Below, one piece after another: positions 31,915 to 54,688 of a stretch of DNA of 64,000 nt (positions are counted from its first letter, which is position 1; each line of letters opens with the position of its first letter). The DNA comes from an uncultured Gammaproteobacteria bacterium. Its GTDB lineage: Bacteria; Pseudomonadota; Gammaproteobacteria; JAADHQ01. The notes beneath the pieces were generated by a model, which made no database searches, was not told the DNA's origin, and saw nothing but the letters and a program-made list of their open reading frames with translations. The position numbers and the translations under genes were made by a program. The stretch lies in contig CAMYJD010000001.1 of assembly GCA_947258655.1 (NCBI GenBank), positions 81,242-145,241 of the forward strand. The letters are read 5' to 3'.

Positions 31915-33291
31915 ATGTTGGATCATTCTTCTTTATGTATGAAACGGGCAAGTGCTGCTATCGCTGCGTTCATGCTCTACCCGCTGTCAACCTTTGCCGA
32001 CCCACAGGCCGGTGCCGTGCGTGAGCAAATCGATGCAATCAGACAGCAAATGCAACAGATGCAGAAAACCTACGAACAGCAAATCAATGCACTGGAACAA
32101 CGCCTGCAGGTAATGGAAGCGGAAGCACAGAAAAGTACCGACACCGATATTGGCGTGCCTCAGCCCGCACCGGAAACGCCAACGGCCGCTGGCAGTGGCT
32201 TGCAAATCGGTGTGTCCGGCCTGTTTGCGGCAGGCGGATCCAGTGTCGGCAATGATGAACTCGAGAGCCTGCAGGCGGGCGCCCATGACCCGAACCAGAA
32301 CGGCTTCACGGTCCAGAACCTGGAGCTGACGCTAAGTGGCACGGTCGACCCCTATATCGATGCACAGGCGAATGTAATCCTGCAGATCGACGCGGAAGGC
32401 GAAACCGTTGTCGAACTGGAAGAGGCCTTCTTCACGACCCGCGGGCTGCCCTCGGGCCTGCAGGTCAAGGGCGGGCAATATTTCACCGAGTTTGGGCGCC
32501 AGAATCCGCAACACCCGCATGTGTGGTCCTTCGTCGATCAGCCCGTGGTGTTATCGCGTTTCTTCGGTGGCGACGGCCTGCGCAGCCAGGGTGTGCGCGT
32601 TTCCAAATTACTGCCAACGGACTGGTATTCGGAACTCTATGTCGGCATGCAGAATCCGAAAGGCGAAACCGTCAGCAGCTTCTTGAACGCTGCGGGTGAA
32701 GACATTGGCGGCTTTACGCTGATTGACCGTGATCCGCGCAATTTCTCTGATCTGCTCTATTCGGCACGCTGGCTCAACGGCTTCGATGTATCAGACAAGG
32801 TCAGCATGAACGTCGGCGTGTCCGGGCTGTGGGGACCCAATGCCAGTGGCAACAACACCGATACCAGCATCTATGGCGCGGACCTGTATCTGAAATGGCA
32901 GCCTGTCTACAGTCAGCGCGGTTTTCCGTTTGTGTCCTGGCATAGCGAGGTATTGCAACGCCGTTACGAGGCAGGCGATCCCGGCGATCCGAATCGTCAG
33001 ACACTGAAGGACTGGGGACTGTTCACCCAGGCACTATGGGGTTTCAAGCCCGGCTGGGTCGCCGGACTGCGTGCCGAATATGCCAGTGCCGATGGCGATG
33101 ATGGCACTGATCCACTGCGCGATACACGCAAACGCCTGTCACCGAACCTGACCTGGTATCCGAGTGAATACAGCAGGGTACGTCTGCAATACAATCGTGA
33201 CTGGACCGAGCATTTATCCGACAAGACGGTCGACTCCGTATTCCTGCAAATGGAATTCAACCTCGGCAGCCATGCTGCGCATAAATTCTAG
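31915..33291 (+). CDS. Outer-membrane porin-like protein of a metal-uptake cluster
   Basis: 458 residues. The signal peptide ends at TFA (residue 31). A coiled coil of about 45 residues follows (REQIDAIRQQMQQMQ onward), as in porins O/P that trimerise through an N-terminal stalk. The remainder has alternating aromatic beta strands (VRLQYNRDW, VFLQMEFNLG) ending in a C-terminal aromatic residue, F, the BAM signal. AGGAGT precedes the ATG. It lies nine bases before the substrate-binding protein gene, so metal or metallophore passage across the outer membrane is inferred. Confidence 0.8.
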   Translation: MLDHSSLCMKRASAAIAAFMLYPLSTFADPQAGAVREQIDAIRQQMQQMQKTYEQQINALEQRLQVMEAEAQKSTDTDIGVPQPAPETPTAAGSGLQIGVSGLFAAGGSSVGNDELESLQAGAHDPNQNGFTVQNLELTLSGTVDPYIDAQANVILQIDAEGETVVELEEAFFTTRGLPSGLQVKGGQYFTEFGRQNPQHPHVWSFVDQPVVLSRFFGGDGLRSQGVRVSKLLPTDWYSELYVGMQNPKGETVSSFLNAAGEDIGGFTLIDRDPRNFSDLLYSARWLNGFDVSDKVSMNVGVSGLWGPNASGNNTDTSIYGADLYLKWQPVYSQRGFPFVSWHSEVLQRRYEAGDPGDPNRQTLKDWGLFTQALWGFKPGWVAGLRAEYASADGDDGTDPLRDTRKRLSPNLTWYPSEYSRVRLQYNRDWTEHLSDKTVDSVFLQMEFNLGSHAAHKF

Positions 33292-37041: not shown

Positions 37042-38274
37042 TTATAATACAATGGATTCGCGCTCTTTCGGTGCCAGACAGATTGTCTTGGAACCTAACT
37101 CGTTGAGTAATGCATGTGCTTGATTCAGTTTTTTATCGATATCATCATCATTATGTGCCGGATCATGATGATATAGAAAAAGTTGTCTAACATTTGCGCG
37201 ATGCGCTGTATGGACTACCTCACTGACACTGGAATGCCCCCAGTCTTCATGCTCACTGTACTCATTATCAAAATAGGTACAATCAGTGATCAACGCATCA
37301 GTATCACGAATAAATTCTTCGAGCATATTGCGGTAATGACTGCTATAGGACGGTGAAGTATCCGGATGAAGTTCCTGGTCGGTGATATAACAAATTGATC
37401 GGCCATCATAATTGATGCGATAGCCAAGACAATAACCGGGATGATTCAACAACATCGTATGCACCTCTACCCCATCCATATCATAGACACCCTCGACCAG
37501 GTCCCTGAAATACACGCGCGCAGCAAATTGTTTCATTGTCACCGGGAAATAGACATCATCCATCTGCGCCGCAATAACCTCGCGCATGGTCAGGCTACCC
37601 TGTGCGGGTCCGCAAATCTCGAATTCATTACCTTGCATGTATAAGGGCACAAAGAAAGGTAACGCATTGATATGATCCCAGTGTGAGTGCGATATAAATA
37701 TCTTCGCGACCACGTTTTTCTTGTGTTCGTTCAACAAATGACTGGACAGGCTGCGTATCCCGGTACCCGCATCGAAAATAAACAAACGGTCTTGCGGCAA
37801 GGACAATGTCACGCACACGGTATTTCCACCATAACGCATACAGTCTGGTTCAGGTGTAGGCAGTGTTCCACGTGCACCCCAGAATGTCAGCGTAACCTGT
37901 TTACTGATTATTTGATCCAAGTCCTCTACAAAGGTCTCGGCATTCACTGGCTTCAGCATATAGCCGTTTGCACCGGACTTGTATGCGCGACTACGATCCC
38001 ATTCATAGGATTTGGATGACAACATAATGATACAGGCATTACTTAACTCAGGACATTCACGCAGCCGCGTACACAATTCCTGCCCATCCATACCAGGCAT
38101 CATAATGTCCAGCAATATGACATCTGGCTGAGTGGACGGGATCAGTGCTAGTGCATCACGACTGGAATGACTGACCTGCACATCATGCCCGGCATCGCTC
38201 AGCAACGTTGTTACGAGCTCGGTAATGGCAGGATCATCATCGACGAGAAAAAATAAAAGTGATTCGGTCATCAT
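37042..38274 (-). CDS. Response-regulator receiver fused to metallo-beta-lactamase hydrolase
   Basis: 410 residues. Residues 5-122 are a receiver with the acidic pocket LVDDDP, phospho-acceptor Asp56 in VILLDIMMPGMDG and Lys108 in YMLKPV. Residues 127-400 are an MBL-fold hydrolase with metal site SHSHWDHINALP (His196, His198, Asp200, His201) and later DCTYFDNEY and YHHDPAHND. The MBL part resembles RNase Z/PhnP-type phosphodiesterases rather than antibiotic lactamases. The fusion suggests hydrolase activity switched by phosphorylation. No histidine kinase is adjacent. The substrate is unknown. Bracketed by repeat relics. Confidence 0.9.
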   Translation of the reverse strand: MMTESLLFFLVDDDPAITELVTTLLSDAGHDVQVSHSSRDALALIPSTQPDVILLDIMMPGMDGQELCTRLRECPELSNACIIMLSSKSYEWDRSRAYKSGANGYMLKPVNAETFVEDLDQIISKQVTLTFWGARGTLPTPEPDCMRYGGNTVCVTLSLPQDRLFIFDAGTGIRSLSSHLLNEHKKNVVAKIFISHSHWDHINALPFFVPLYMQGNEFEICGPAQGSLTMREVIAAQMDDVYFPVTMKQFAARVYFRDLVEGVYDMDGVEVHTMLLNHPGYCLGYRINYDGRSICYITDQELHPDTSPSYSSHYRNMLEEFIRDTDALITDCTYFDNEYSEHEDWGHSSVSEVVHTAHRANVRQLFLYHHDPAHNDDDIDKKLNQAHALLNELGSKTICLAPKERESIVL

Positions 38275-38903: not shown

Positions 38904-39560
38904 TTACTTTTTATCTTTACCAGACTTTTTAGACTTATTGTCTTTCTTGGATTTCTTGTCCTTGACGGACTTTTTGGCTTTGTCAGACTTCTTTGCCTTC
39001 TTTTGTTTACTATCTTTGTTGGATTTACTGGACTCATCCTTGTTCACCTTGTCTTTGTTGGTCTTGTTGGACTTCTTGGATTTATCATTTTTATCCTTCT
39101 TGCCCTTGGCGTCTTTTTTATCATTATTCTTCGCCTTGTCCTGTTTGTCCTTGGTAGATTTTTTTGCGTCTTTGTCTTTACTGCCCTTCTTGCCTTGCTG
39201 TCGATCCCTTGGCGAAGACTTGCTTTCATCTCGCAGCGCCGACTTTTCATTGCTTCTTTCTGTAGCCCTGGTCAGACCACGGCTAGTCGACATGTTTTTA
39301 CGGTTATTATTATAGAGTTCCTTACCAATTCCGGGAACTTTCTGTATATCTTCAGCACTTTTGAATGAACCGTGTTTTTTCCGGTAATCGATAATGGCTC
39401 TGGCCTTGACCGGTCCGATACCTGACAGGTTTTGTTGTAATGCCTTTTCATCGGCCTTGTTGATATTTACCGTGTCTGCCGACACGTTGATGGGCACAAG
39501 GGTTAACACCAGCATCATCATAATAACGATTAACGGAATGCTCTTGAACTGCATATTCAT
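38904..39560 (-). CDS. ComEA-like helix-hairpin-helix protein with lysine-rich tail
   Basis: 218 residues from the ATG at 39560, with GGAG nine bases upstream; an ATG five codons earlier overlaps that site. The signal peptide ends near VSA (residue 28). A ComEA-type double helix-hairpin-helix follows (VNINKADEKALQQNLSGIGP, then IQKVPGIGKEL), which binds double-stranded DNA in competence proteins. The last 125 residues or so are dominated by Lys, Asp, Ser and Asn in KDKKSKK-like repeats. A normal ComEA ends after the HhH domain. The tail could bind DNA or acidic surface polymers. No other competence gene is nearby. Confidence 0.85.
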   Translation of the reverse strand: MNMQFKSIPLIVIMMMLVLTLVPINVSADTVNINKADEKALQQNLSGIGPVKARAIIDYRKKHGSFKSAEDIQKVPGIGKELYNNNRKNMSTSRGLTRATERSNEKSALRDESKSSPRDRQQGKKGSKDKDAKKSTKDKQDKAKNNDKKDAKGKKDKNDKSKKSNKTNKDKVNKDESSKSNKDSKQKKAKKSDKAKKSVKDKKSKKDNKSKKSGKDKK

Positions 39561-39890
39561 AATGACACGCTCCATTATAGATTCAATTGACAGTCATACT
39601 GTTCACTGTCAGCGCATCATATACAGTGTCTCCTGGGTATACCAGTTAGCAGGAATGCATTTAACGAACATTTTACAATTGAGCTGCGATAACTTTTTAT
39701 CCGCTCAAAAATATACGCTATTCATCTATATGAGTATTAATCGCTGCTTATTGAGATGAAATCTATGGTCGGATAAAACGTCATGCTTCGCAAATGATAT
39801 CATGACCTGGACTACACATTAGCCATGCACAGAGGACCGGCTTTGCCAGTTTTCCGTTGAGAAAATATATAAATCAACTGCAGGTGCCGT
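39561..39890. other. Intergenic region, no gene recognised
   Basis: 330 AT-rich bases between the comEA-like gene and the protease gene stop. No coding frame with family resemblance. It holds the comEA-like promoter. No clear terminator for the protease gene was seen. Confidence 0.5.
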
Positions 39891-41192
39891 TTATTGCCCT
39901 GCCAATACAATCATGACCGATTCCTGTATACGCGCCGCCAGGCCTTCGAGGTTATCTCCCTGACTAGCCAGTTCGGTCAGTGGTTGTTGTGCCTGCGGCA
40001 GTTTTTCCATCAACGCCTTCAATACATCCACCTTCAGGGCAAAACTGATATTGGGCAACAGCGTGGTTGTGCCGGTGCGATCATCGGTTGTACCGAGCAT
40101 GGAGGTAACGATACCGACGACCTCACCCTTCATGTTCAGCAATGGTCCGCCACTGTTTCCGGGCTGCACAGGAACCGAAATCTGGTAATTGCTGCGATCC
40201 CCCCGCAGTCCATTTACAGAGCTGATGATGCCATCTGTCAATTTTGGTGTTTTACCCATAATATCGATGCGTGGATAACCTATCGTAAACACAGTGGCTC
40301 CGAGGCGTGCATGGTTGCCTGACAAAGGTAAGGCCGGCGGCATTTTGTCCAGTTCGATAACGGACAACAAGGCCAGATCATTTTGCTTATCGCGTAATAC
40401 CACCCGTGCATGAATACTGTCACCGGCGGTATTAATCAATGTAACTTCATTACTATCGGCAACGACATGATTATTCGTTACCGCATAGCCATGGGCGATA
40501 GGCCAGGCCGTGCCCGATGACTTGTTGGCAAATATGTCCAATGAAGCATCATGCTCCGCCTGTGGTGCATAGGTTGTCAGTTTGGCCTGTAACTCGACGG
40601 CACGTGAATGATCCGGTGATATTCGCTGTATGGCTTGCAGTGATTCGCGTGATTTGTCCACATTTCCTGTTTGTAGGTAGGCCAGACCGGCCAAGTAAAA
40701 CCATTTCACGGCCTTGTTATGCTCGACCGGCATACGCTTTCCTTCCGTATACAGTACGCCGAGATTGTACTGGGCGATGGCAAAACCCTGTTGTGCTGCC
40801 TGTTTAAGCCAATGAATGGCCTGCCGTATGTCCTGTTCTACACCCCTGCCCTGTAGATACATTTGTCCGAGATTAAACTGCGCTGATTTATGACCTTGTT
40901 TCGCGGCACGTTGATACCATTGCGCAGCCATTGCGTGGTTTTCGGCCACACCCTTGCCATAGTCGTACATGACACCCAGATTGATTTGCGCATCAGTATT
41001 TCCCTGTCTGGCAAGCGGCTCCCAGATTTTCATGGCCTCGGAATACTTTCCCTGATCATAGGCCTCCCAGCCCTGGGTAAATTGCTGATCGCTAGGAGCT
41101 AGCGGCTTCGCATAGACATTAATAGGCAACAACAAGCCGAGTATGATCGCCGAGTTCAATAGTGGTCGTCTGATTTGAGTGATAAGGCCCAT
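39891..41192 (-). CDS. Periplasmic Sel1-repeat/trypsin-like serine protease
   Basis: 433 residues from the ATG at 41192, with TGAGGT eight bases upstream. The signal peptide ends at VYA (about residue 28). Residues 35-175 form three to four Sel1-like repeats (YGKGVAENHAMAAQWYQRAA, LQGRGVEQDIRQAIHWLKQA), then a short TPR-like stretch. The C-terminal half is an S1C trypsin-like domain with the triad His242 (VTNNHVVAD), Asp272 (QNDLALLS) and Ser347 (QPGNSGGPLL). There is no PDZ domain, unlike DegP. The repeats probably choose the substrate or partner. Envelope quality control is a reasonable guess. Confidence 0.9.
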   Translation of the reverse strand: MGLITQIRRPLLNSAIILGLLLPINVYAKPLAPSDQQFTQGWEAYDQGKYSEAMKIWEPLARQGNTDAQINLGVMYDYGKGVAENHAMAAQWYQRAAKQGHKSAQFNLGQMYLQGRGVEQDIRQAIHWLKQAAQQGFAIAQYNLGVLYTEGKRMPVEHNKAVKWFYLAGLAYLQTGNVDKSRESLQAIQRISPDHSRAVELQAKLTTYAPQAEHDASLDIFANKSSGTAWPIAHGYAVTNNHVVADSNEVTLINTAGDSIHARVVLRDKQNDLALLSVIELDKMPPALPLSGNHARLGATVFTIGYPRIDIMGKTPKLTDGIISSVNGLRGDRSNYQISVPVQPGNSGGPLLNMKGEVVGIVTSMLGTTDDRTGTTTLLPNISFALKVDVLKALMEKLPQAQQPLTELASQGDNLEGLAARIQESVMIVLAGQ

Positions 41193-41423
41193 ATTAAATA
41201 CCTCAATATTTAACATATCCACAAAGTATCATTTACGCATTGGCACTTAAACATGGAGATCGGCTGATATCAGCGCTTGCTTTAATTAAGAAAAAATCAC
41301 TTAACTCCATCAATCATAATTGAACAAATAAAGGCTTATAAGTAACATGAGATTAATGCTATATATTATTGTATATATTGTTATTTTATAGGTATTTATT
41401 CAAATAATTACCCAAGACTGAAC
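41193..41423. other. AT-rich spacer
   Basis: About 230 AT-rich bases between the protease gene start and the terminator of the next operon. It must contain the protease promoter. Nothing else was recognised. Confidence 0.5.
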
Positions 41424-41460
41424 AAAAAAAGGGAGGGTAAGCCAATGGCTCATCCCTCCC
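41424..41460 (-). terminator. Intrinsic terminator of the four-gene envelope operon
   Basis: On the minus strand GGGAGGG pairs with CCCTCCC, with an inner AGCC-ATT-GGCT stem, and the hairpin (41431-41460) is followed by seven T (41424-41430). It lies about 32 bases after the stop of the repeat lipoprotein gene, so it closes that transcription unit. Confidence 0.88.
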
Positions 41461-41491
41461 AATTACTACTGGAGAAGTTAGTAGTATCTAT

Positions 41492-42634
41492 TTAGTTTGC
41501 CAGCTTAACCCCTAATGAGCTCAGGGTTTCCATGGTCAAACCACCTGTGCTCAGGCCTTTTGATCGTTGATAGGCCTTGGTTGCTGACAGCGTTTGCGCA
41601 CCAATGACACCATCCAGCGGACCCGGGTTGAATCCGGCGGCCTTCAGTGATTTCTGTACACGCATTCCCACCTGTGCATTCATGTTGGTCTTGCACAGTA
41701 CCGGGGCCCAGTCCATCTTGCCTTCTGAAACCTTGATACGCTTGGTAATGGTTGCGTATTCAGCCTTGATGGGAATGGACCTGGTCTTTGTAGGCTCAAC
41801 CATTTTGCGTGCCTTGACGATCTTGTATTCAGCCGGAATGGTAACGGTACGTGTTGTTGCAGGCGCCTTTACCACGCGTTTCTTGACTGTCTTGTATTTA
41901 GCCGGGATCGTTACCGAACGTGTTGTCGCCTTGCTGACCAGAACACGCTTGGCTACTGTCTTGTAGGTCGCCGGTACAGTAACCAGACACATGATTTCAC
42001 CGGTTGCTGCATCTACCTTGGTAATCGGACCACTACCCTTCTTCCATACGGTATGCTCGGGCTTGTCCAGCACCTTCTCGTATTCAGTCTTGTATACTGC
42101 AGGCACTTCCTCGATGCGCTCACTTGTAGGTGAGACCAGGACTTTTTCGCTGACCCAACCATACTTGGCCGGAACCACTTCGATACGCTCTGAAGGCTCC
42201 TTGATCATGACACGCTCTTCCGCCATCTTGTAACGCGCCGGTATAATCTCGATACGCTCAGCCGCGTCCTTCTTCAACACCGTCAGTGTTTCGGTCTTGT
42301 ACTTGGGTGCCGTAAATACACGTGCATAGCATTCACCCGCCTTGGCATTGGGCGGCAATAACTCCGGTGTGGTCATCGGGGCACTTGTTTGACCTGTAGC
42401 TGCTGTAGTATAGGTCTCACGCTCCTGCTCCAGGCGACTACGAGCAGCCCTTTCTTCTTGCAAGGTAGCTTCCAGCGAAGATATTTGCTTGTCTTTTTCA
42501 ACAATAATCATATCTGAACCGGACTTTGCCGTCTTCGTTGTTTTATCCGACATTGTACTACAACCACTCATAACCAGTGCCGAAATCATTACTGGCAATG
42601 CCAGCTTTTTAACTGTAATTTGACTCTTTTTCAT
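41492..42634 (-). CDS. Lipoprotein with 23-residue VPAxYKTV repeats and peptidoglycan-binding domain
   Basis: 380 residues from the ATG at 42634 (AAAGGTG upstream; a GTG three codons earlier is possible). The lipobox VMSGC lipidates Cys25 (from the ATG). A short coiled coil (about 45-80) follows. Residues about 110-320 hold eight diverged copies of a unit of about 23 residues, such as TIPAKYKTVKKRVVKAPATT, IIPARYKMAEERVMIKEPSE and TVPATYKTVAKRVLVSKATT. The C-terminus (about 320-380) is a PG_binding_1 domain (RVQKSLKAAGFNPGPLDGVI). The build suggests a lipid-anchored extended fibre that grips peptidoglycan. Last gene before the terminator. Confidence 0.85.
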   Translation of the reverse strand: MKKSQITVKKLALPVMISALVMSGCSTMSDKTTKTAKSGSDMIIVEKDKQISSLEATLQEERAARSRLEQERETYTTAATGQTSAPMTTPELLPPNAKAGECYARVFTAPKYKTETLTVLKKDAAERIEIIPARYKMAEERVMIKEPSERIEVVPAKYGWVSEKVLVSPTSERIEEVPAVYKTEYEKVLDKPEHTVWKKGSGPITKVDAATGEIMCLVTVPATYKTVAKRVLVSKATTRSVTIPAKYKTVKKRVVKAPATTRTVTIPAEYKIVKARKMVEPTKTRSIPIKAEYATITKRIKVSEGKMDWAPVLCKTNMNAQVGMRVQKSLKAAGFNPGPLDGVIGAQTLSATKAYQRSKGLSTGGLTMETLSSLGVKLAN

Positions 42635-42704
42635 CTGTTTCACCTTTATAATTTAATTGATTGTTAAGATCCAATTTCTCAATACAACTAATTTTTAAAC
42701 ACCA

Positions 42705-43493
42705 CTACTTCGATGCAGACGCCATGTATGCGACGGCTGCCTTGACTTCTTCATCGCTCAAAGCAGGAAAACCACCTTTCGCTGGCATATAGCCCTTGGA
42801 ACCCTGGTAACCCTTTATGGCATGTTCAACCATTAGGTCCATACCCTGAGCCTTGCGTATGGTCCAACTGCTGTCATCCAGTTTTGGCGCCCCTGTCGCA
42901 CCAGAACCGTGACAGGCAACACACTTGCTAGTATAGACAGATTCTCCAAGTTTAAGATCTACAGCGGGCATTTCGGGTGCAGTAGCTGATGATCCCATTG
43001 CGGCAACGGCTGCACCGCCCCCGGTAAGGGTTTTTCCTGCTGATGAATCCGTCAGCATAGTGCTTGCCTTTTCCTTTACAGTTTCCATCGATTCAGTAGC
43101 GCCTTGTTTAGTATCAGCTGCATCGATGTTCTGTGAGGTATCAGTAGACAGCATATCTGCCGCTTTTTCTTTCACATTCTCAACCGTTTCGGTCAAGCCT
43201 TCCTTAGCTTCCTCAACGGTTTCGACGACCTTGGTACTGCCTTTCTTAACAAAAGTGGAAGCAACCTCGGCTGCAGACTTTGTCTTATCGGTTACGACCT
43301 CCTTGATCTCTTCGCCCTTCTCCATTACGGTTTCCGCGGCCTTCGTAGTTGTGTCTTTCACGTCAGTGACTACCTTCGATGCCTTGTCGGCGAGGGATTC
43401 GGTTGATGCCTTATCTGACTCGTCGTCGGACTTGCTACAGGCTATCGTAAGCATTGCAGCAACGCCCAGAGACACAATCATGCTTGCTTTCAT
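42705..43493 (-). CDS. Lipoprotein with amphipathic helical linker and cytochrome c domain
   Basis: 262 residues. The lipobox LTIAC lipidates Cys19. Residues 30-150 are Ala/Lys/Glu/Thr/Val-rich with a repeated 11-residue-like pattern (VKEKAADM, VVETVEEAKEGLTETVENV), like LEA or apolipoprotein helices. Residues 175-262 are a single-heme cytochrome c5-like domain with CVACH at 191-195 and an axial Met in KGYMPAKGGFP. GGAGAG supports the ATG. It would place a heme on a long helical tether at the membrane. Electron partner unknown. Confidence 0.88.
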   Translation of the reverse strand: MKASMIVSLGVAAMLTIACSKSDDESDKASTESLADKASKVVTDVKDTTTKAAETVMEKGEEIKEVVTDKTKSAAEVASTFVKKGSTKVVETVEEAKEGLTETVENVKEKAADMLSTDTSQNIDAADTKQGATESMETVKEKASTMLTDSSAGKTLTGGGAAVAAMGSSATAPEMPAVDLKLGESVYTSKCVACHGSGATGAPKLDDSSWTIRKAQGMDLMVEHAIKGYQGSKGYMPAKGGFPALSDEEVKAAVAYMASASK

Positions 43494-43562
43494 ATTGACT
43501 CTCCAATTGACTTTTATTTCATTATCTGCAGATCCAGATGATCTGCATGGGCAGGTCAGCCT

Positions 43563-43970
43563 TTAATAACTGACCTTTGGCTCCATATTCCTGGCCTGAT
43601 CCACCCAGGACTGGACACTTTTAAGACTGGGTGTCTGCCTGACGAGTTTTTTGGCAGTATTAATCTCTCTCATTTTTTCTGCGAGATTTTCAGCATTTCG
43701 ATTTCTCAGTTCCTTGACGGTATCAACGCCCGCGGCCTCGAGCAACTCCGAATACTGGGTTGAAATACCGGATATACGACACAAATCACAGAGGTTTGTC
43801 CATTTAAGGATACGCGTGTCGTCTATGCCAGTTTTTTCTGCCAGCACCTGGCGCCCCTTGCTAGAACAGGCCTGATCAAGTAATTTATCCGGGTTAGTAA
43901 TACCCTGCGTTCGCAGCAGTTCCCCGAACTTCGGACCGATACCTTCAATATCTTCTATTTTCATTGCCAT
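43563..43970 (-). CDS. DUF4332 helix-hairpin-helix protein
   Basis: 135 residues, all one DUF4332 unit with two helix-hairpin-helix-like motifs (IEDIEGIGPKFGELLRTQGI and LCRISGISTQYSELLEAAGV). There is no signal peptide, so it is cytosolic. The family is found beside diverse genes and its role is unknown; DNA or protein binding is plausible. GGAG precedes the ATG. It lies 69 bases upstream of the cytochrome gene on the same strand. Confidence 0.9.
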   Translation of the reverse strand: MAMKIEDIEGIGPKFGELLRTQGITNPDKLLDQACSSKGRQVLAEKTGIDDTRILKWTNLCDLCRISGISTQYSELLEAAGVDTVKELRNRNAENLAEKMREINTAKKLVRQTPSLKSVQSWVDQARNMEPKVSY

Positions 43971-44036
43971 TATTTTTCTCCGCGTAGATAGCTTTCTATC
44001 TCAATGTCGTTATGCCAACTTGTGCAGGCCCGAGAA

Positions 44037-44360
44037 TCAGAAAAAACTCTTGATCTTGCCGAGTAGACCGCCCGCCCCACTGCCGCCAAGCTGACCAAGG
44101 ATAGTTGGAAGAATAAATTTCATACCCTGATCAACAAGATTACTATCTATACCCAGCTTAGACGCGATCGCTGACAGATCGATGTTTCCAAGAATTGAGT
44201 CCGCATCGCTGTTACCGCCACTATTCTCAAATGCCGAGACAATACTGCTGCCTGCCTCTGGCAGGAACTTCTCTGCCTGCTCCTGACTGAATCCCTTGCC
44301 AACCAGACCAGAAATCATCTCACCTGCCTTGTCACCCAGTATTGATTGTAAAATATCCAT
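44037..44360 (-). CDS. Small DUF937/YidB-like protein
   Basis: 107 residues, Gly/Ser/Leu-rich, with segments ISGLVGKGFSQEQAEKFLPE and LSAIASKLGIDSNLVDQGM and a GGSGAGGLLGKIK end. This resembles DUF937/YidB-type proteins, but the family call is tentative. No signal peptide. GGGGA precedes the ATG. It is the first gene of the leftward unit, and its promoter must be in 44361-44632, shared with the divergent DUF853 gene. Confidence 0.6.
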   Translation of the reverse strand: MDILQSILGDKAGEMISGLVGKGFSQEQAEKFLPEAGSSIVSAFENSGGNSDADSILGNIDLSAIASKLGIDSNLVDQGMKFILPTILGQLGGSGAGGLLGKIKSFF

Positions 44361-44632
44361 GACTCATTCCCCTATTGTCTTAAAGTACCTGCCTTGCGGT
44401 CAGGTTGTGTGTTGATGTGGGAAGTATTGTAGGCCTGAAAAAAATGAAAACAATGGCCTTTACAAACATTTAACAAAGATTTTATAACTGTTAATATTTG
44501 TTATATATTCATATGCCGGTGACATTTGCATAAATACTTAAATTACAATAATAATCAGCTCAGGATGGCAACAGTTTCCTGCAGCTAGAACAGGTCTCCA
44601 GCACTTCGACTGTACAGGATAGGAGTTTAGAT

Positions 44633-46099
44633 GTGACTAACGAAAATGGCATATACATCGGTAAAGGGCAGACTGACATATTTCTGTCACCCGCTCTGGC
44701 CAACCGCCATGGATTGATCGCAGGGGCAACCGGAACAGGTAAAACGGTCACATTACAAATACTGTCCGAGGGATTCTCGGATATAGGCGTGCCAGTTTTT
44801 ATGGCCGACGTCAAGGGTGACCTGGCCGGCATCAGCATGCCCGGCAACACCCATCCCAAACTGGAGGAACGCGCCCGAAATATCGGTATGCAGGATTACA
44901 GCTACAGGGGCTTTCCGGTCGTATTCTGGGACTTGTTCGGCGAACAGGGACATCCAATCAGAACCACAGTATCCGATATGGGTCCACTGTTATTGTCACG
45001 ATTACTGGACCTGAATGACACCCAGGAAGGTGTTATGAATATCGCCTTCAAACTGGCCGATGATGAAGGGCTGCTGTTACTGGATTTCAAGGACCTGCGT
45101 TCAATGATCAATTTTGTTGGCCAGAATGCGAAGGAATTGACGACCAAATATGGCAATGTCTCACCCGCATCCATCGGCGCCATCCAACGCCGTTTACTGG
45201 TACTCGAACAACAGGGTGGAGAAAACTTTTTCGGCGAACCCGCTCTCGACCTGAATGATCTGATGCGTACGGATTCCAGTGGTCGCGGCTATATCAATAT
45301 TCTCGCAGCTGATCAACTGATGATGAATCCCAAGTTGTACTCAACCTTTCTGTTATGGCTGCTGGCCGAATTGTTTGAACAACTGCCGGAAGTGGGCGAT
45401 CCCGAAAAGCCCAAGCTGGTTTTCTTCTTTGATGAGGCACACCTGTTATTCGATGACGCACCCAAGGCATTAGTAGATAAAGTCGAACAGGTTGTTCGTC
45501 TGATCCGTTCCAAGGGTGTCGGCGTCTATTTTGTCACCCAAAATCCGATGGATGTCCCCAATGATGTTCTCGGCCAGCTTGGAAACCGTGTCCAGCATGG
45601 GCTCAGGGCGTTTACACCGCGTGACAAAAAGGCTGTCAAGGCGGCGGCAGACACCTTCCGCGCCAATCCAGATTTCGATGCCAGCGATGTCATCACCCGC
45701 CTCGGCGTCGGTCATGCGCTTGTATCCACACTTGAAAAGAAGGGTGTCCCGGGCATTGTACAAGAAACCACAATACGCCCGCCCAGTTCACGCATGGGGC
45801 CTATCACTACCGCAGAGCGCCAGACCAAACTAGCGGGACCCATGCAGGGCCGCTATGACAAGCCGGTTGACCGCCTCTCTGCTCATGAGCTGCTGCTCGA
45901 AAGGGCAAAAAAGAAAGCGCTCGAAACCGAGCGCCTGGAACAGCAGGCGGAGAAGGATAAGCTCGAAAAAAAATCCACAGCGCGTAAAAGTAATCGCCAG
46001 GGTGTCGGAGAGACCATGCTCAAAAGCCTGGTTCGCAGCATAGGTAGTCGTCTCGGCACCAAAATCGTAAGGGGCCTGCTCGGCTCGCTGCTGAAATAG
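44633..46099 (+). CDS. yjgR: DUF853/YjgR HerA-like ATPase
   Basis: 488 residues with GTG start (TAGGAG upstream). Walker A is [13 protein letters not shown], Walker [13 protein letters not shown]. The conserved YjgR blocks [15 protein letters not shown] and [20 protein letters not shown] are present. The C-terminus is charged, Lys/Glu-rich and ends in a basic helix ([20 protein letters not shown]). The family is related to FtsK/HerA translocases, but its cellular task is unknown. It is 39 bases upstream of a response regulator on the same strand. Confidence 0.93.
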
Positions 46100-46138: not shown

Positions 46139-46834
46139 GTGCGCGTAGCCCTACTTGAAGATGAACCTGCACAGGCCGAATTAATTCAAATGTGCCTGAA
46201 GACAGCAAACCATGACAGCCAGCACTTTAGCACCGGCAAATCATTTCTGAAGAGTGTCATGAATGATACGTATGATTTGTTAATCATGGACTGGAATATA
46301 CCAGATGCCAATGGACCTGACGTGCTGAAAGAGATACGTGATAGACTGGACTGGGAAATACCGGTGCTTTTCGTAACCAGCCGGATCAGCGAGGATGATA
46401 TAGTGTATGCGCTGGAACAGGGTGCAGACGACTACATGACCAAACCGGTAAAACAAAAAGAGGTCATTGCTCGAGTCAACGCCCTGGAACGTCGCACCAG
46501 GGCAAAAACGGAAAGGGATACTATACTTGAATTACCCCCTTACACGATAAACATCAATAATCGTGAATTCAGAAAACATGGTACACTCGTTGAACTTACA
46601 CAAAAGGAATTTGATGTTGCGTTATTATTATTCAGCAATCGTGGACGATTGTTATCGAGAAAATACCTGTTACAAAGAGTCTGGGGGCAGACTGCGGATT
46701 TGAACACAAGAACCGTCGATACACACATCAGTAAAATCAGAACGAAACTGGGTATCAACCCGGCCGAGGGCTGGAGGCTCAGTTCGGTCTACCAGCATGG
46801 TTATCGTCTGGAACAAAACGAACAACAACAATAG
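46139..46834 (+). CDS. OmpR-family response regulator
   Basis: 231 residues with GTG start. The receiver has LLEDEP, Asp51 in LLIMDWNIPDANGP and Lys in DYMTKPVK. The C-terminal winged helix (about 135-228) has the OmpR features LTQKEFDVALLLF and VDTHISKIRTKLG. It binds DNA when phosphorylated. Two downstream genes end in a CHASE2 histidine kinase, the likely partner. Confidence 0.95.
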   Translation: MRVALLEDEPAQAELIQMCLKTANHDSQHFSTGKSFLKSVMNDTYDLLIMDWNIPDANGPDVLKEIRDRLDWEIPVLFVTSRISEDDIVYALEQGADDYMTKPVKQKEVIARVNALERRTRAKTERDTILELPPYTININNREFRKHGTLVELTQKEFDVALLLFSNRGRLLSRKYLLQRVWGQTADLNTRTVDTHISKIRTKLGINPAEGWRLSSVYQHGYRLEQNEQQQ

Positions 46835-46894
46835 ACATTCAGGAATACTACGGCAAGTATAAAATTGTAATTCTAACATGCAAGCGGGGCATGT

Positions 46895-48565
46895 ATGTAT
46901 AAAGTGATATCTGAAAGCGAGACAGGCATCCATACGGGAAGTAGAACGATATTGCCATTGGCGATGGTAATGTTTATTGCCTTTTCCTGTTTGCAGGCGA
47001 TCCCACTTCCAGCACTGGCCAAAGACTGGCTTTATACGGTCAGACCAGGCGATAACCTGTGGAGCATAAGTGAAAAATACCTGACGAAAAAAGAATATGC
47101 CAACAGGCTTATTAAACTAAACCGGATAAAGAACCCTGCACATCTGCAACCCGGGAGCAAATTGCGTATACCGATTACATGGCTGAAACGACAACCCTCC
47201 TCTTCCCGTCTGGTACAAGCACAAGGCGAGGTTACTATCATTCGTGCCGCCGGTGAACAACCTCAAAGTAACAACGGCGAAATCAGGTTGTATGTTGGCG
47301 ATACAATTACAACCGGTGCAAACGGCAGCGCAACCCTCGAATTTGCCGACAAATCACGCTTGTTGATACAACCGGACTCCGAACTGGTCATGGATACACT
47401 CAGTATGTTTGGTGACAGTGGCATGGTCGACACCCGACTGCGGCTCCCTGCCGGCCGGGTGGAAACCCAGGTGACACCTAAGAAAGGTCCTGCATCACGC
47501 TATGAAATTACAACACCGGCTGCCGTGGCTGCCGTTCGCGGCACAGATTTCCGTGTCGGTGCCGACCACGAGCAGGAGGTCAGCAGAAGCGAGGTTCTCG
47601 AAGGCAAGGTAGGCATAAAGGGCGCAGACAGTATGCGCAACATACCGGCCGGCTTCGGCACTGTAGCAAAAGCCGGTGAACCCCCAATACCACCGAAGAA
47701 ATTACTGCCTGCACCCAATAGCAAAAATACACAGAAGCATTTTAACCACATCCCGCTCAGATTCGAATGGCAGACGATCGAGCTGGCCAGTGCCTACCGC
47801 GTACAAATTTACTATGCAGTCAATTCAGGTACCTTGGTTGTAGATAAAGTAGTCGAAAACAATAGATTTGAACTTGATGACCTGAAAGATAATGATTATC
47901 TGTTGCGTATCCGCGCAATCGACAGCCTCGGGCTTGAAGGGCTCAACCGCGATCATCATTTCAAGGTCGATGCACGCCCCTTCCCGCCCGTGCTAACAAG
48001 CCCGCTCGACAATTCCCTGCTACGCAGCAGACAACCGGTTTTCAAGTGGACTGACGAAAAAGATTCACCGGCCTACCTTGTACAGATAGCCCGGGATCAG
48101 CATTTCAGAAAAATTGTCCATGAATCTGGAAAAAACCGTGGTAAAGAGTTTGTAATGGCAACACAACTTCCGCAAGCAGCTTTATACTGGCGTGTCGCAG
48201 CTCTCGATAATTCTGGTCTGCATGGACCATTCTCCGCAACTGGCCGTTTCCGAATAAGAACGCTACCGGACATACCGCAGATACGCTCCCTATCATTTGA
48301 ACCTGAAACAATAGAGTTCAAATGGAGCGCCGAACCGGGTGAACTACACTTCCACGTGCAAATGGCGACTGACGACCAATTCGAGAATATCGTCATCGAT
48401 AAAAAAGCCACGCAGACAGGCAGTCTGTCTTTAAAGCGACCTCCGTCAAACATCTATTATTACAGAACAAGAGCAATCAACAGGCATGGTGATACCAGCC
48501 CCTTCAGCACACCGAAAATGATACACGTATTACCATTAAACTATAACAATCCCGACCTCCGCTGA
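46895..48565 (+). CDS. Secreted LysM-FecR protein with fibronectin-like repeats
   Basis: 556 residues. A signal peptide/anchor covers about residues 17-42. LysM is at 46-93 (YTVRPGDNLWSISEKYL), then a FecR domain at about 115-225 (VGDTITTGANGSATLEFADKS, TPAAVAAVRGTDFRV). Residues 280-550 form three fibronectin/Ig-like repeats (LRFEWQTIELASAYRVQIYY, PVFKWTDEKDSPAYLVQIAR, IEFKWSAEPGELHFHVQMA). It likely holds peptidoglycan and presents a signalling domain in the periplasm. It sits between the response regulator and its kinase. Confidence 0.9.
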   Translation: MYKVISESETGIHTGSRTILPLAMVMFIAFSCLQAIPLPALAKDWLYTVRPGDNLWSISEKYLTKKEYANRLIKLNRIKNPAHLQPGSKLRIPITWLKRQPSSSRLVQAQGEVTIIRAAGEQPQSNNGEIRLYVGDTITTGANGSATLEFADKSRLLIQPDSELVMDTLSMFGDSGMVDTRLRLPAGRVETQVTPKKGPASRYEITTPAAVAAVRGTDFRVGADHEQEVSRSEVLEGKVGIKGADSMRNIPAGFGTVAKAGEPPIPPKKLLPAPNSKNTQKHFNHIPLRFEWQTIELASAYRVQIYYAVNSGTLVVDKVVENNRFELDDLKDNDYLLRIRAIDSLGLEGLNRDHHFKVDARPFPPVLTSPLDNSLLRSRQPVFKWTDEKDSPAYLVQIARDQHFRKIVHESGKNRGKEFVMATQLPQAALYWRVAALDNSGLHGPFSATGRFRIRTLPDIPQIRSLSFEPETIEFKWSAEPGELHFHVQMATDDQFENIVIDKKATQTGSLSLKRPPSNIYYYRTRAINRHGDTSPFSTPKMIHVLPLNYNNPDLR

Positions 48566-48580
48566 TATGCGGCGCGTATT

Positions 48581-51214
48581 GTGACAAGCACGAGAGCACG
48601 TCAGCCAGGAAGACCGGAACGAATGCTGTTCTGGTTTGTCATTATCGCCCTGACGATAATACTGATCAAAAGTAACTGGTTATGGCGTCTGGACCAGATC
48701 CTCTATGATGCCCATCTGCAGTTCTGGGGCAGAGCTGCTCCTGATGACATTATAATCATTGCCATTGATGATGAAAGTCTGCACAGACTGGGGCGCTGGC
48801 CATGGTCGCGCGACATACATGCCCGCCTGATCGATATACTTAGTGAAGAAAATGCACGTGCCGTTGCCCTCGATATTATTTTTGCCGAAGCCTCGCAAAA
48901 TAACAGACTTGCTGATCGCAAACTTGCAGACGCCATGTCCAGGAATGGCAATACGATACTGCCTGTGCTGGTAGAACAATCCAGAAGTGGCGGACAACTG
49001 ATCGAAACACTACCCATATCTATGCTCGCAAACGCTACAAAGGCCCTCGGCCATGTACATGTTGAACTTGATCAGGACGGCATAGCCAGAAGTGTGTATC
49101 TGAAGGGAGGTCTGGGTACACCGCACTGGCCCAACCTGGGTCTGGCATTATTACAGCTTGCAGATCCGCTTTACCGGGAAGTGACAATGGGTACTCGCAG
49201 TCCTTCTGATCTGACTGAATCACCATTGGTATGGACACGCGATCATAAAATTCTGATAGCCTATGCAGGCCCACCTGGCCATTTTCAGAGAATTTCCTAC
49301 GCCCAGGTGCTGGAGGGCCGTTTCGCACCGGGCACGTTTACAAATAAACTGGTGTTAATAGGCGCCACTGCCGCCGGTCTCGGCGATGCATTACCTACCC
49401 CGGTCTCCGGCTATACCCACTCCATGCCCGGCGTGGAGATAAATGCCAATATCATCGACACCCTGCGTAATGGTATCGATCTCCAGGACATGCCCGAGAC
49501 TCAGCAAATGCTTATATCGGCCCTGATTATCCTCATTCCTGCACTATTGTTTGTACACCTCACTCCTAGATGGAACCTGATTATCACAACATTACTTCTG
49601 GGTCTCACTCTGCTATCGAGTTTTGTATTGTTGCGCGTCATACATATATGGTTTCCACCTTCATCCGTTCTGTTAGCGCTGATACTAAGTTATCCATTAT
49701 GGAGCTGGAGAAGGCTGGAAAACGCAATGCAATACCTAAATCACGAGCTCAGCCGTCTACATACGGAACAATCCGCAATACCCAGTGACAGCAATATTGA
49801 TATAGCAGCAACAATGAAGTTTCTGGCACAAATGTTACCCATCGGCGGCTGGGCTTTGTTTAATATGGACGGCAAGCTCAAGGCGCACGATGGTCAGTAC
49901 CCGCCAGTCATCAAACTGACTGATATTCCAACCGGACAATGGTATTCACAACCCAATAGCTACTGGCTGGACATGTCGGCAGACCCTGGTCTTGGTTATC
50001 TTGGCTTGACATGGATGGAATCAACACGAGCGGATAAATCACAGCATATGCTTCTTAATGACTTGCTTGAACGTTACCAGTCACAATCACGCTCGGTACC
50101 GGCAGATACCATCGAACTCGTTCAGGCTCGAATAGAACAGGTGCAACAAGCAACTGATCGCTTACAAGCACTGCGTCAGTTTGTTCTGGACGTCATCTCG
50201 CAAATGAGCGATGGCATACTGGTAGTAGATCCTCTGGGTAACATTGTACTTTCCAATGAAAGAGCACAGCAATACCTGGCAGCAGAGAACCACCAGGAAC
50301 TGAATAAGTCACTGTTAACAGATGCCCTGTCAGTAGTGCAAATCCAGGGAGCTCAGTCATGGCCAGGACTGATCAAGGACGTCTTGCTGCAGCGTAGAAA
50401 TATCCAAATCGACGCACAGCATCAAAACGGCAGGGATCTGCTGGTACAGATTGTACCGTTGGACAGGAGCAAGCGTGAACTGGGTGGACTGATTGTCAAC
50501 CTGTCAGATATTTCACCACTCAAATCCAGTGAGCGCAGACGTTCCGAGCTGCTCGGATTTCTGTCACACGACCTGCGCTCACCTCTGGTATCGTTAATTG
50601 CATTAGTGGAGATTTCCCGTAGTAAAAATCCTGGCCCAGAACTGCTGGCATTACTCGACAGGATGGAAGGCTTTGCCAACAATACGATTGATCTTGCAGA
50701 GGAATTTCTGCATCTGGCGCATGCTGAAAGCAGTGAGAATATCCAGTTTAACGATGTTGATTTGATATGGGTTGCACATAATGCCCTCGAGCATGCCTGG
50801 GCGCAGGCTCAGAAAAAAGGGATCTCTCTGGAACATGATTTCAATGTAGACGAAGCCTGGATTCAGGCAGATGCCAATTTGGTCGAGCGCGCACTGGTTA
50901 ATCTCCTTGATAATGCGATCAAATACAGTCCCGCGCAAACACAAGTAAAACTAAGTTTGCAGAAGAGTAATGGCGAATACTATTGCTGCATAAGCGATCA
51001 TGGGCGCGGCATTCCAAAACAGGAAATTCATCGCCTGTTTGATCGTTTTTACCGGGTATCAGAGGGTGATGGTGTTACTCAGGAAAAGGGCGCCGGACTT
51101 GGACTGGCCTTCGTACAGGCAGTTGCACAGCGTCATAACGGTAAAATCACTGTTGATAGCACGCCTGGAGAAGGCTCGCAGTTTTGTCTTATATTACCCA
51201 TATCCGCCGCCTGA
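48581..51214 (+). CDS. CHASE2-PAS sensor histidine kinase
   Basis: 877 residues with GTG start. A first transmembrane helix at about 15-35 is followed by a periplasmic CHASE2 domain (about 40-310), three helices (about 315-390) and a PAS domain (about 540-650). The H-box LLGFLSHDLRSPLVSLI has phospho-His663. The ATPase domain has LVNLLDNAIKYSP, SDHGRGIPKQE and GAGLGLAFVQAV. CHASE2 senses unknown periplasmic cues. It follows the LysM-FecR gene by 15 bases. It would phosphorylate the OmpR-type regulator at 46139. Confidence 0.95.
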   Translation: MTSTRARQPGRPERMLFWFVIIALTIILIKSNWLWRLDQILYDAHLQFWGRAAPDDIIIIAIDDESLHRLGRWPWSRDIHARLIDILSEENARAVALDIIFAEASQNNRLADRKLADAMSRNGNTILPVLVEQSRSGGQLIETLPISMLANATKALGHVHVELDQDGIARSVYLKGGLGTPHWPNLGLALLQLADPLYREVTMGTRSPSDLTESPLVWTRDHKILIAYAGPPGHFQRISYAQVLEGRFAPGTFTNKLVLIGATAAGLGDALPTPVSGYTHSMPGVEINANIIDTLRNGIDLQDMPETQQMLISALIILIPALLFVHLTPRWNLIITTLLLGLTLLSSFVLLRVIHIWFPPSSVLLALILSYPLWSWRRLENAMQYLNHELSRLHTEQSAIPSDSNIDIAATMKFLAQMLPIGGWALFNMDGKLKAHDGQYPPVIKLTDIPTGQWYSQPNSYWLDMSADPGLGYLGLTWMESTRADKSQHMLLNDLLERYQSQSRSVPADTIELVQARIEQVQQATDRLQALRQFVLDVISQMSDGILVVDPLGNIVLSNERAQQYLAAENHQELNKSLLTDALSVVQIQGAQSWPGLIKDVLLQRRNIQIDAQHQNGRDLLVQIVPLDRSKRELGGLIVNLSDISPLKSSERRRSELLGFLSHDLRSPLVSLIALVEISRSKNPGPELLALLDRMEGFANNTIDLAEEFLHLAHAESSENIQFNDVDLIWVAHNALEHAWAQAQKKGISLEHDFNVDEAWIQADANLVERALVNLLDNAIKYSPAQTQVKLSLQKSNGEYYCCISDHGRGIPKQEIHRLFDRFYRVSEGDGVTQEKGAGLGLAFVQAVAQRHNGKITVDSTPGEGSQFCLILPISAA

Positions 51215-51245: not shown

Positions 51246-53651
51246 TCAGACAACACTCTTGTCTTCACCAGTATAATCATATACCGTTTCCAGACTATCA
51301 AGCGGCTCGCTATAATAATACCCCTGAGCTTCATCAACACCCAGTTCACCGAGAATAGCATGTATCTCCTCGTTCTCGACAAACTCCGCAATGGTATTAA
51401 TACCGAGCCCATAGGCGATATCGCATATCGCCTTGACAAATATACGATCGCTGGACTCTTGATGCAGATTACGAACAAATGATCCATCTATCTTTATGTA
51501 GTCAACCGGCAAGTGCTTCAGGTAATGTAATGTCGAGAAACCGACACCGAAGTCATCCAGCGCGAACTTACACCCTAATGCCCTTAAGGACTCGATAAAA
51601 CTGCGTGCCTGCGACAGGTTCTCGACAGCCGCTGTCTCGGTTACCTCGAATATCAGATTCTCCGGTATGGCCTTGTAGTGTTGTAGCCAGTACTCGAGCT
51701 TTTCCAGTAATTCCTTACTACCAAAATTCCTGCCTGACAGATTCACGGCAAGGGTCACGGGAGTCCCTTGTGCACTTTCCTTACCCAACTTACGAATTGC
51801 ATTCTCCAGCACCCATTTATCAATATCCCTGATCATTCCAAAGCGTTCGGCGGTATCGATAAATGCCGACGGCATTATCAACTTGTTATTATCCACATCA
51901 TAGATTCGCAACAGGGCCTCATAGTGTGCAACATCACCGCTTTTTATATCGATAATGGGTTGGTAATGCAGCACGAAAAGATCCTCTTGTAATGCACGCT
52001 TGATGCGGTCCTCCCAATGAATCTTCTCTTGCATCTGATGTAGTTGACGATCATCATCATGATACAGGTGAAATCCATTTCTCCCCTCCGCCTTGATCAT
52101 ATACATGGCGGCATCAGCTTTTGCGAGCAGCTCACTAGTTTCATTACTATGCTCAGGGAATACAGCGCCGCCAATACTGGCACTTATATGCGTGAGCAAG
52201 CCCTGCGAGACCAATACCTGCTCGGACAATTTTTTCAGTAATTTGGACGCAATATGTTCGATGTCTTTCGCATTGACTTCTGGCAGGATAATACCAAACT
52301 CATCCCCACCCAGACGTCCGAGAATATCAACATCGCGTATTGAATCCGTAAGGCATTTTGCTACTGCAATCAGATATTCATCTCCACCCTGATGACCGAG
52401 AGAATCATTTATATATTTAAATTGATCAAGGTCTATAAATAGCACAGCACCTTGATGATTGAAACGTTCCGCTGATCTGATGCACCGGTGCAGTTCTTCC
52501 TGAAACCGCCGCCTGTTCATCAAGCCTGTCAGGGCATCATGATCGGCAAGATAAACAATCCGCTCTTCTGCATATTTCTGTTCGGTAATATCGATCATCA
52601 GACCACGAATTATTATTCCATCATCACTATCGTCCACAATATTCAGAATACTTCTTACCCAAAGGTATTCGTTATTCTTGTGTTTCATCCTGTGATCGAA
52701 CGTATAGGAGCGGCCGGGCTTATAATTATTCTTCATTTTTGCCTGCAATATCGGCAAATCATCCGGATGAACGTGCTCACAGAGAAAATTTTCGCCAAAC
52801 CATTCATCGATCTGATATCCCAGTATATTGACAGCCTCATCACTGACGTAGAGATACCGACAATTAAATGGATCCATTTCCAGAACAACGGCATTCACAC
52901 CGTTAAGAAGTGTTTGTAAATGACCGGTTTCACGCCCCAGCGCTGCATGTTTATTCTGAAGTTCATGTTGCATCTCTGACAGGCTTTCTGCCATCAGGTT
53001 GAACGATCTGGCCACATCGGATATCTCGTTATTTCCGTTTACCGGAATACGATAGGACAACTCGCCCTCTGATAACCTAAGTGCTCCCACTTCGAGGTCA
53101 TGTAGTCTGCGCGTCAGATAGATACCAACAAAAATAGTAAATATGATCGATATAATCAGAGCAATTACCGCAATGGCCGTATTTTGCAGACTCGTCTTCC
53201 GGGTTATCTCCTTGACATCACCTTGTGTATAACTTGCCCGCAAGCTTCCGAGATACTGACCTGCCAGCATAATTTTCTGGATTATCGTATACACGCCATC
53301 GGCATAGGTCATGCGATTATGTAGCAGGTCTGCCTGTTTCTCTCCTGCGTTTTCATTATCACCGATATGAGCCTGCATCGTGCCATTGCGATCATATACC
53401 GCCGAATAGACCAGGTTCTTCCTGTTACTCATCAAAGACAGCGAGTCGAGCAACATGGCACGGTCATCCACGGCCAGGCCCGGCGCAAGTGAATTTGCCA
53501 ATACCACCGTTTCCTGCCTGATAGAGCGCTCGAACAACTCCATATGGCTGGAATTAATCAGGCGCACACTGTTCCAGACCAACAACAAAAGCATCGCCGT
53601 TACAACGACGATAATGCCGATAATCAATTTTGTTGACAGTCTGGTATGCAT
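51246..53651 (-). CDS. Membrane sensor with HAMP-PAS-GGDEF-EAL domains
   Basis: 801 residues. Two transmembrane helices (about 10-28 and 158-180) bound a periplasmic sensor. A HAMP segment (RRLHDLEVGALRLSEGELSY) and PAS (about 245-365) follow, then a GGDEF domain with the intact motif at 448-452 and EAL with Glu578 in YEALLRI and DDFGVGFSTLHYLKHL. Both catalytic motifs are present, so it could make or degrade c-di-GMP. The start ATG overlaps the stop of the upstream binding-protein gene by one base (TAATG), coupling their translation. Confidence 0.95.
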   Translation of the reverse strand: MHTRLSTKLIIGIIVVVTAMLLLLVWNSVRLINSSHMELFERSIRQETVVLANSLAPGLAVDDRAMLLDSLSLMSNRKNLVYSAVYDRNGTMQAHIGDNENAGEKQADLLHNRMTYADGVYTIIQKIMLAGQYLGSLRASYTQGDVKEITRKTSLQNTAIAVIALIISIIFTIFVGIYLTRRLHDLEVGALRLSEGELSYRIPVNGNNEISDVARSFNLMAESLSEMQHELQNKHAALGRETGHLQTLLNGVNAVVLEMDPFNCRYLYVSDEAVNILGYQIDEWFGENFLCEHVHPDDLPILQAKMKNNYKPGRSYTFDHRMKHKNNEYLWVRSILNIVDDSDDGIIIRGLMIDITEQKYAEERIVYLADHDALTGLMNRRRFQEELHRCIRSAERFNHQGAVLFIDLDQFKYINDSLGHQGGDEYLIAVAKCLTDSIRDVDILGRLGGDEFGIILPEVNAKDIEHIASKLLKKLSEQVLVSQGLLTHISASIGGAVFPEHSNETSELLAKADAAMYMIKAEGRNGFHLYHDDDRQLHQMQEKIHWEDRIKRALQEDLFVLHYQPIIDIKSGDVAHYEALLRIYDVDNNKLIMPSAFIDTAERFGMIRDIDKWVLENAIRKLGKESAQGTPVTLAVNLSGRNFGSKELLEKLEYWLQHYKAIPENLIFEVTETAAVENLSQARSFIESLRALGCKFALDDFGVGFSTLHYLKHLPVDYIKIDGSFVRNLHQESSDRIFVKAICDIAYGLGINTIAEFVENEEIHAILGELGVDEAQGYYYSEPLDSLETVYDYTGEDKSVV

Positions 53652-54514: not shown

Positions 54515-54688
54515 GGTGTTGCCCTCATTATTATATACGCTCATAGCCAATATCATTATATCGGTTACAAACACCCTATCCTTTAGTCTAATCAGGGTTA
54601 TTATAATAATGAACTTTAGAAATATTATTTATCCTATTGTTTTATATATTATTTCTAGATCTTATATTGGCATAAACGACTGATCTGC

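Follow-up and report, generated by a model that had tools for sequence, protein, structure and literature searches.

The stretch of DNA analysed here (the window) is 64,000 nucleotides (nt) long and comes from an uncultured gammaproteobacterium (contig CAMYJD010000001.1, positions 81,242 to 145,241). It carries four consecutive minus-strand genes, referred to as g1 to g4, which lie between a proposed operator and a terminator, and which are divergent from a gene group encoding a two-component regulatory system. The genome of the window is designated G000; G003 is a congener, also an uncultured gammaproteobacterium (contig CAMYJO010000003.1), and G047 belongs to another family. The features are as follows.

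44459-44487, minus strand: proposed operator of three direct-repeat half-sites 11 base pairs (bp) apart, TTATAAA-N4-TTGTTAA-N4-TTGTAAA (kept in G000, G003 and G047; motif enrichment).
44426-44453, minus strand: promoter-like TTGTTT-N16-TACAAT (conserved in alignment A1; consensus match only).
44037-44360, minus strand: g1, 107 amino acids (aa), DUF937/YidB-like, without a signal peptide (weak Pfam matches, adjacency to DUF4332).
43563-43970, minus strand: g2, 135 aa, DUF4332, predicted cytoplasmic tandem helix-hairpin-helix (HhH) protein (Pfam, AlphaFold model, family alignment).
42705-43493, minus strand: g3, 262 aa, lipoprotein with an 11-mer amphipathic stalk and a C-terminal cytochrome c5-type domain (Pfam, structure matches, periodicity, lipobox).
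41492-42634, minus strand: g4, 380 aa, lipoprotein with a short coiled coil, 23-residue beta repeats and a C-terminal PG_binding_1 domain (Pfam, lag-23 repeat, family alignment, low-confidence model).
41424-41460, minus strand: intrinsic terminator, hairpin plus U7, -23 kcal/mol (z = -5.4, 0/200 shuffles as stable).
44633-46099, plus strand: HerA/YjgR-type ATPase, divergent neighbour (Pfam HerA_C, 1e-231).
46139-46834, plus strand: PhoB/CreB-class response regulator, proposed controller (profiles, operator association).
46895-48565, plus strand: exported LysM and FecR protein, proposed wall sensor (Pfam).
48581-51214, plus strand: CHASE2-PAS-HisKA-HATPase sensor kinase (domain search).

The gaps between g1 and g4 measure 66, 69 and 70 nt, and a Shine-Dalgarno-like stretch lies ahead of every gene (AGGGG, CGGAG, TGGAG and AAGGTG, in the order g1 to g4). 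The start of g4 was taken as the ATG at 42634, placed by its ribosome-binding site, whereas the automatic open reading frame listing prefers a GTG at 42643, upstream of that ATG. The layout given in the initial annotation, four same-strand genes with short gaps, their own ribosome-binding sites and a single terminator, was confirmed from the reading frames, the DNA and the terminator fold. A generic promoter and terminator scan returned no more hits than shuffled sequence and missed the terminator at 41460-41424, and no fold clearly better than shuffles was found in the three gaps (z = -0.4, -1.0 and -1.8). The genes and their order recur in G003, with ratios of nonsynonymous to synonymous substitution (dN/dS) of 0.12 for g1, 0.07 for g2, 0.08 for g3 and 0.09 for g4 (synonymous sites being near saturation for g1 and g3) and amino-acid identities of 51%, 84%, 64% and 78% respectively; they are therefore real genes under purifying selection. 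Co-production of the four proteins, as originally proposed, agrees with the order common to the congener, the one terminator and the one conserved promoter and operator ahead of g1. The description as an envelope operon holds only for the operon part, because neither g1 nor g2 carries a signal peptide.

The strongest signal at the locus, which was missing from the initial annotation, is the operator together with the neighbouring two-component system. G000, G003 and G047 share conserved DNA upstream of g1, although the g1 of G047 stands alone elsewhere. Visual comparison of promoters pointed to a direct repeat, TTGTNAA-N4/5-TGTNAA, with a half-site spacing of 11 bp in the window and 10 bp in most relatives. 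With up to one mismatch allowed, the density of the motif is 2.3 per kb upstream of g1 homologues versus 0.026 per kb for 777 other genes at the same loci, the former figure being partly circular as the g1 promoters suggested the motif; matches ahead of the ComEA-like, Sel1-trypsin and regulator genes played no part in deriving it. In an independent set, whose gammaproteobacterial loci share at most about 75% DNA identity where alignable, the motif precedes DUF4332 in 12 of 75 named loci versus 0.45 expected (p = 4e-14), and it is present in all six loci with the regulator nearby versus 6 of the 69 without it (p = 4.6e-6). The proposed regulon is marked, in short, by phased direct repeats that are enriched and associated with the regulator, and this statistical association is the basis for proposing binding and control by the neighbouring regulator. 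Genome-wide there are few exact sites. Two unrelated genomes, G000 and G172, have such sites ahead of genes for DUF481 outer-membrane proteins, and G083 has one ahead of an OmpA-type gene. Across eight genomes the exact operator with a 4-nt spacer gave 17 sites versus 6 for a reversed-pattern control, which means that an operator regulon, if any, is small and that chance accounts for many of the single sites. A genome-wide search with the exact 16-mer operator stayed at control level, and only the degenerate direct repeat was informative.

Our preferred interpretation, to which we give a probability of roughly 0.5, is that g1 to g4 form the output operon of a divergently encoded envelope-stress two-component system (HerA, regulator, LysM/FecR protein and CHASE2 kinase). 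As far as is known, all regulators of the PhoB/OmpR class bind similar direct repeats; the PHO box is a pair of TGTCA-type repeats at 11-bp spacing, and the CpxR box is GTAAA-N5-GTAAA. The operator repeat resembles both, as would be expected if a PhoB or CpxR orthologue encoded elsewhere bound it; the operon would then be a target of the phosphate-starvation or Cpx type, with the two-component genes beside it as bystanders. This is rather unlikely, given that the operator tracks the neighbouring regulator (6/6 versus 6/69) and that the repeat lies about 30-40 nt upstream of the -10 element and does not replace the -35 element as in classical PHO boxes.

The initial annotation recognised two lipoproteins among the products, one with heme and one binding peptidoglycan, and both are borne out by sequence criteria. 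In g4 a lipobox, VMSGC-S, follows a hydrophobic signal and was found both by inspection and by a stricter regular expression. Its PG_binding_1 domain (E = 1.5e-7, 31.9 bits versus a gathering score of 23) is the same domain as in SleB and SltB3. The repeats of g4 show 32.7% self-identity at a lag of 23 residues versus a mean of 8.7%, and are modelled, with low confidence, as alternating long and short beta strands (AlphaFold predicted template modelling score, pTM, 0.35). Foldseek returned no match with E < 0.001 for the fold of the repeats, and only the peptidoglycan-binding domain was matched. Besides the lipid-anchor cysteine, cysteines 102, 216 and 314 (window numbering) are invariant in 18 g4 homologues (alignment A3).

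In g3 the lipobox, LTIAC-S, also follows a hydrophobic signal; it was found by inspection and missed by the stricter expression. A threonine at position -3 of the lipobox, as here, is allowed by the PROSITE rule, though atypical. A serine at position +2, the sole basis for the placement, suggests an outer-membrane location for both g3 and g4. The stalk between anchor and heme domain is some 115 residues long and has a composition rich in T, E, K, A and V. Its hydrophobicity has a periodicity peak at 98.5 degrees (0/200 shuffles as strong); this is the 11/3 signature of the hendecads of late embryogenesis abundant (LEA) proteins and apolipoproteins. A weak match to Pfam Apolipoprotein (1e-4) is under the cut-off. 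The C-terminal domain is of the class I c5 type, with a CVACH (CXXCH) heme site, a distal methionine in GYMPAKGG and a match to Pfam Cytochrome_CBB3 (E = 6e-15), and residues ~179-262 match c5-type structures (c-555, ScyA, c5) with E-values down to 2e-20.

The purpose of this heme is the weakest point of the stress-output interpretation, and a respiratory shuttle is a live rival to it. The operon could be mainly respiratory, with g3 a membrane-tethered c5 that feeds either a cbb3 oxidase or a reductase, the remaining genes being incidental; g3 matches c5-type and CcoP cytochromes, in G265 the gene directly after DUF4332 encodes a lipoprotein-cytochrome c5, and G014 has a gene for a membrane-anchored c5-like protein close to DUF4332. 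Such a role appears improbable, however, as genes for an oxidase, a reductase or cytochrome maturation were not recognised in the neighbourhood, and the genes that are linked have to do with the envelope and with stress. Moreover, amphipathic lipoproteins of the g3-stalk type that have no heme domain lie near the locus in G047 and beside both copies in G360, from which the heme of g3-type lipoproteins appears to be an optional module.

The other two products have no such export features. The assignment of g2 to DUF4332 in the initial annotation is upheld by Pfam (PF14229, E = 2.8e-38, 131 bits versus a gathering score of 23.2, residues 9-128). Its AlphaFold model consists of eight helices (predicted local distance difference test score 95, pTM 0.86), and the compact resemblances returned by Foldseek, none with E < 0.001, are HhH modules (NusA AR2, RadA), in line with a Pfam HHH_5 match on g2. 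The protein is predicted to be a cytoplasmic tandem HhH protein. The label "DUF937-like" for g1 survives as a likeness and fails as family membership: DUF937 (PF06078; E = 9e-4, 20.1 versus a cut-off of 25.4) and YidB (PF20159; E = 7e-4, 20.3 versus 24.3) both score under the curated gathering cut-offs, and were rejected as assignments. Profile-profile comparison with true DUF937 covered 29 columns at 10% probability. The g1 protein and its upstream block were also compared between genomes, and the copy in G047 (L071, 8262-8702) has 87% protein identity to g1 of the window versus 51% for that of G003. Both gene and upstream block are thus far closer to the copy from another family than to that of the congener, which suggests that g1 and its promoter were horizontally transferred or replaced together. 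DUF4332 and DUF937 have no settled role; the only literature mention of DUF4332 found was in a figure legend, and searches on YidB and osmotic stress, YjgR/HerA and cytochrome c5 tethers gave nothing that explains the operon.

Conservation was followed in a class-wide sample of 369 genomes, with the neighbourhoods of about 50 loci examined, and in a second set of 80 named loci from several phyla. The congener G003 keeps the whole stretch, with ComEA-like, Sel1-trypsin, g4, g3, g2 and g1 genes and the divergent HerA, response regulator and LysM/FecR genes. In the 369 genomes DUF4332 is present in 43 and g4 in 45, and both occur together in 22 versus 5.2 expected (p = 8e-12); collapsed to families, the figures are 17 versus 4.7 (p = 3e-9). 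Outside the congeners the linkages are pairwise (g1-g2, g2-g4, g2-cytochrome lipoprotein and g2-HerA). DUF4332 lies within 300 nt of a DUF937-like gene in 8 of 33 loci, with HerA near it in 15, and g4 is beside or near DUF4332 in G360 (two copies), G169 and G265. A gene for the channel MscL adjoins DUF4332 in G265 and G014, and an MscS-type channel gene is directly downstream in G047 and G169. Around DUF4332 in the 80 named loci, HerA was found within 3.5 kb in 31, DUF937-type genes in 7, DUF2780/DUF2267-like genes in 12 and MscS-type genes in 6. The regulator-FecR/LysM-CHASE2 operon is linked to DUF4332 in several families, and HerA in several phyla. The initial annotation had staked its proposal on neighbours conserved beyond close strains, and such conservation is seen, as the pairwise linkages recur in other families. 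The exact set g1 to g4 is a genus-level arrangement, and the wider association is old.

Two further arrangements were recorded in this survey. A string in Woeseiaceae (L217, 7461-10934) combines a Kbp/YgaU-like BON-LysM gene, DUF937, dodecin, DUF4332 and an MscS-type channel, and is possibly a stress-protein cluster. Two near-parallel loci with HerA, DUF4332, g4 and an amphipathic lipoprotein are found on different contigs of G360 (L137 and L138).

The idea with which the analysis began, that all four proteins assemble in the envelope to position a heme, did not survive as the leading one: g1 and g2 are predicted to be cytoplasmic, only G000 and G003 were seen to carry the complete block, and the lipoprotein partner is heme-less in G047 and G360. 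That the genes are a lineage-specific string of unrelated function under one terminator, a view favoured by the restriction of the block to these two genomes and by two other congeners without g1, g2 and g4, is very unlikely in view of the pairwise linkages in many families and phyla and the recurrence of the shared operator.

The stress-output interpretation builds on the observed genes, their linkage, the operator enrichment and the operator-regulator association, and from these we infer a stimulus and a course of events. A disturbed cell wall would be sensed by the periplasmic LysM/FecR protein and the CHASE2 kinase; wall-binding domains are present in both this sensor and g4 (Pfam), and the MscL/MscS, LysM, OmpA and DUF481 companions suggest osmotic or wall stress. 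The phosphorylated PhoB/CreB-class regulator would then bind the direct-repeat half-sites ahead of g1, and may control a small regulon that also includes ComEA-like, Sel1-trypsin, DUF481 and OmpA-type outer-membrane proteins. Lipid-anchored in the outer membrane, g4 would grip the peptidoglycan as a Pal/Lpp-like tether, and g3 would form an LEA/apolipoprotein-like outer-membrane stalk whose c5 domain, in this genus, may shuttle electrons. The two cytoplasmic factors would be g1 and g2, of which g2 would probably act with the HerA-type ATPase on nucleic acid.

Several observations weigh against this interpretation. Besides the confinement of the full block to two congeners, g4 is often encoded at a different site in the genome, and shared ancestry inflates the significance of the co-occurrence and operator counts. 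DUF4332 lacks an operator of this form upstream in G265, G360 and G258 and in most loci from outside the Gammaproteobacteria, and three loci of the derivation set have no operator ahead of g1 or g2 despite the presence of the regulator. A LysM/FecR gene at any position in a genome is a weak predictor of the operator (7 of 10 genomes with the operator versus about 6 of 17 without).

The proposed regulon draws in further features of the window.

39891-41222, minus strand: Sel1-repeat and trypsin-like protease, conserved g4-family neighbour (Pfam; adjoins the g4 family in five loci; operator ahead of it in G003 and G215).
38904-39575, minus strand: exported ComEA-like HhH protein (kept in G003 and G047).
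39661-39678, minus strand: operator-like repeat ahead of the ComEA-like gene, with 1 mismatch (exact site at the same place in G003).

Elsewhere in the window, a response-regulator receiver fused to a metallo-beta-lactamase-type domain is encoded just past the ComEA-like gene (37042-38274). A HAMP-PAS-GGDEF-EAL protein gene (51246-53651) lies tail to tail with the CHASE2 kinase gene and adjoins a phosphonate-type binding protein gene (53651-54574). A 458-aa reading frame without a Pfam match at E 1e-5 (31915-33291) directly precedes genes for a ZnuA-like binding protein and an ABC-3 permease.

Taken together, and held more tentatively than the output-operon interpretation, the data may reflect an undescribed, widespread gammaproteobacterial envelope-and-nucleoid stress response, in which a peptidoglycan-sensing LysM/FecR-CHASE2 system with its own operator would drive a DUF937-like and DUF4332 core (with HerA and MscL/MscS) and swappable outer-membrane lipoproteins, one with a captured cytochrome c5 on an LEA-like stalk. 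Its parts can be compared with known systems. Like Pal/Lpp-type tethers between outer membrane and peptidoglycan, g4 combines a lipoprotein signal with a wall-binding domain, but where those use OmpA-C or the Lpp helix, g4 has 23-residue beta repeats and PG_binding_1, with no confident fold match. The g3 stalk shares its 98.5 degree periodicity and composition with the 11-mer helices of LEA group 3 proteins and apolipoproteins and differs in being exported and lipid-anchored, the likeness being one of resemblance only, with a Pfam score under the cut-off. Its heme domain is like those of cytochrome c5, c-555 and ScyA in CXXCH, GYMPAKGG and structure matches; these are soluble or on a transmembrane helix, whereas that of g3 stands on a hendecad amphipathic lipoprotein stalk.

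In Cpx and Bae, two-component systems control envelope genes by way of direct repeats with a GTAAA-like motif, and the system in the window is predicted to use the same kind of control and of repeats. It differs in its sensor (CHASE2 plus a separate LysM/FecR protein), its target set and its regulator scores. Against the NCBIfam equivalog cut-offs the regulator scores 108 versus 341 for CpxR, 132 versus 380 for BaeR and 152 versus 273 for CreB, and all three assignments were rejected as far under the cut-off. The system would work like an envelope-stress response, yet its regulator is outside Cpx, Bae and Cre by curated cut-offs.

The closest parallel is the BiofilmReg operon of Burkholderia contaminans (regulator, LysM/FecR protein and CHASE2 histidine kinase), where a strain with an interrupted regulator gene was without biofilm production (PMC5192318). 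That study names no target promoter, and among Gammaproteobacteria it found only a partial version, a LysM-truncated protein and kinase in P. aeruginosa (PMC5192318). At 46139-51214 the regulator, LysM and FecR protein and CHASE2-PAS kinase are adjacent in the same order and with the same domain make-up, and the regulator is of the PhoB/CreB class in both. The window differs in the HerA-type gene ahead of the regulator and in the attached operator and divergent operon of DUF937-like, DUF4332 and lipoprotein genes. What is new is that a direct-repeat operator joins uncharacterised families to a known sensor that had no known targets. Gene neighbourhood and operator together make the DUF4332 and DUF937 families one testable stress regulon, and a BiofilmReg-type regulator gains a candidate binding site and candidate target genes.

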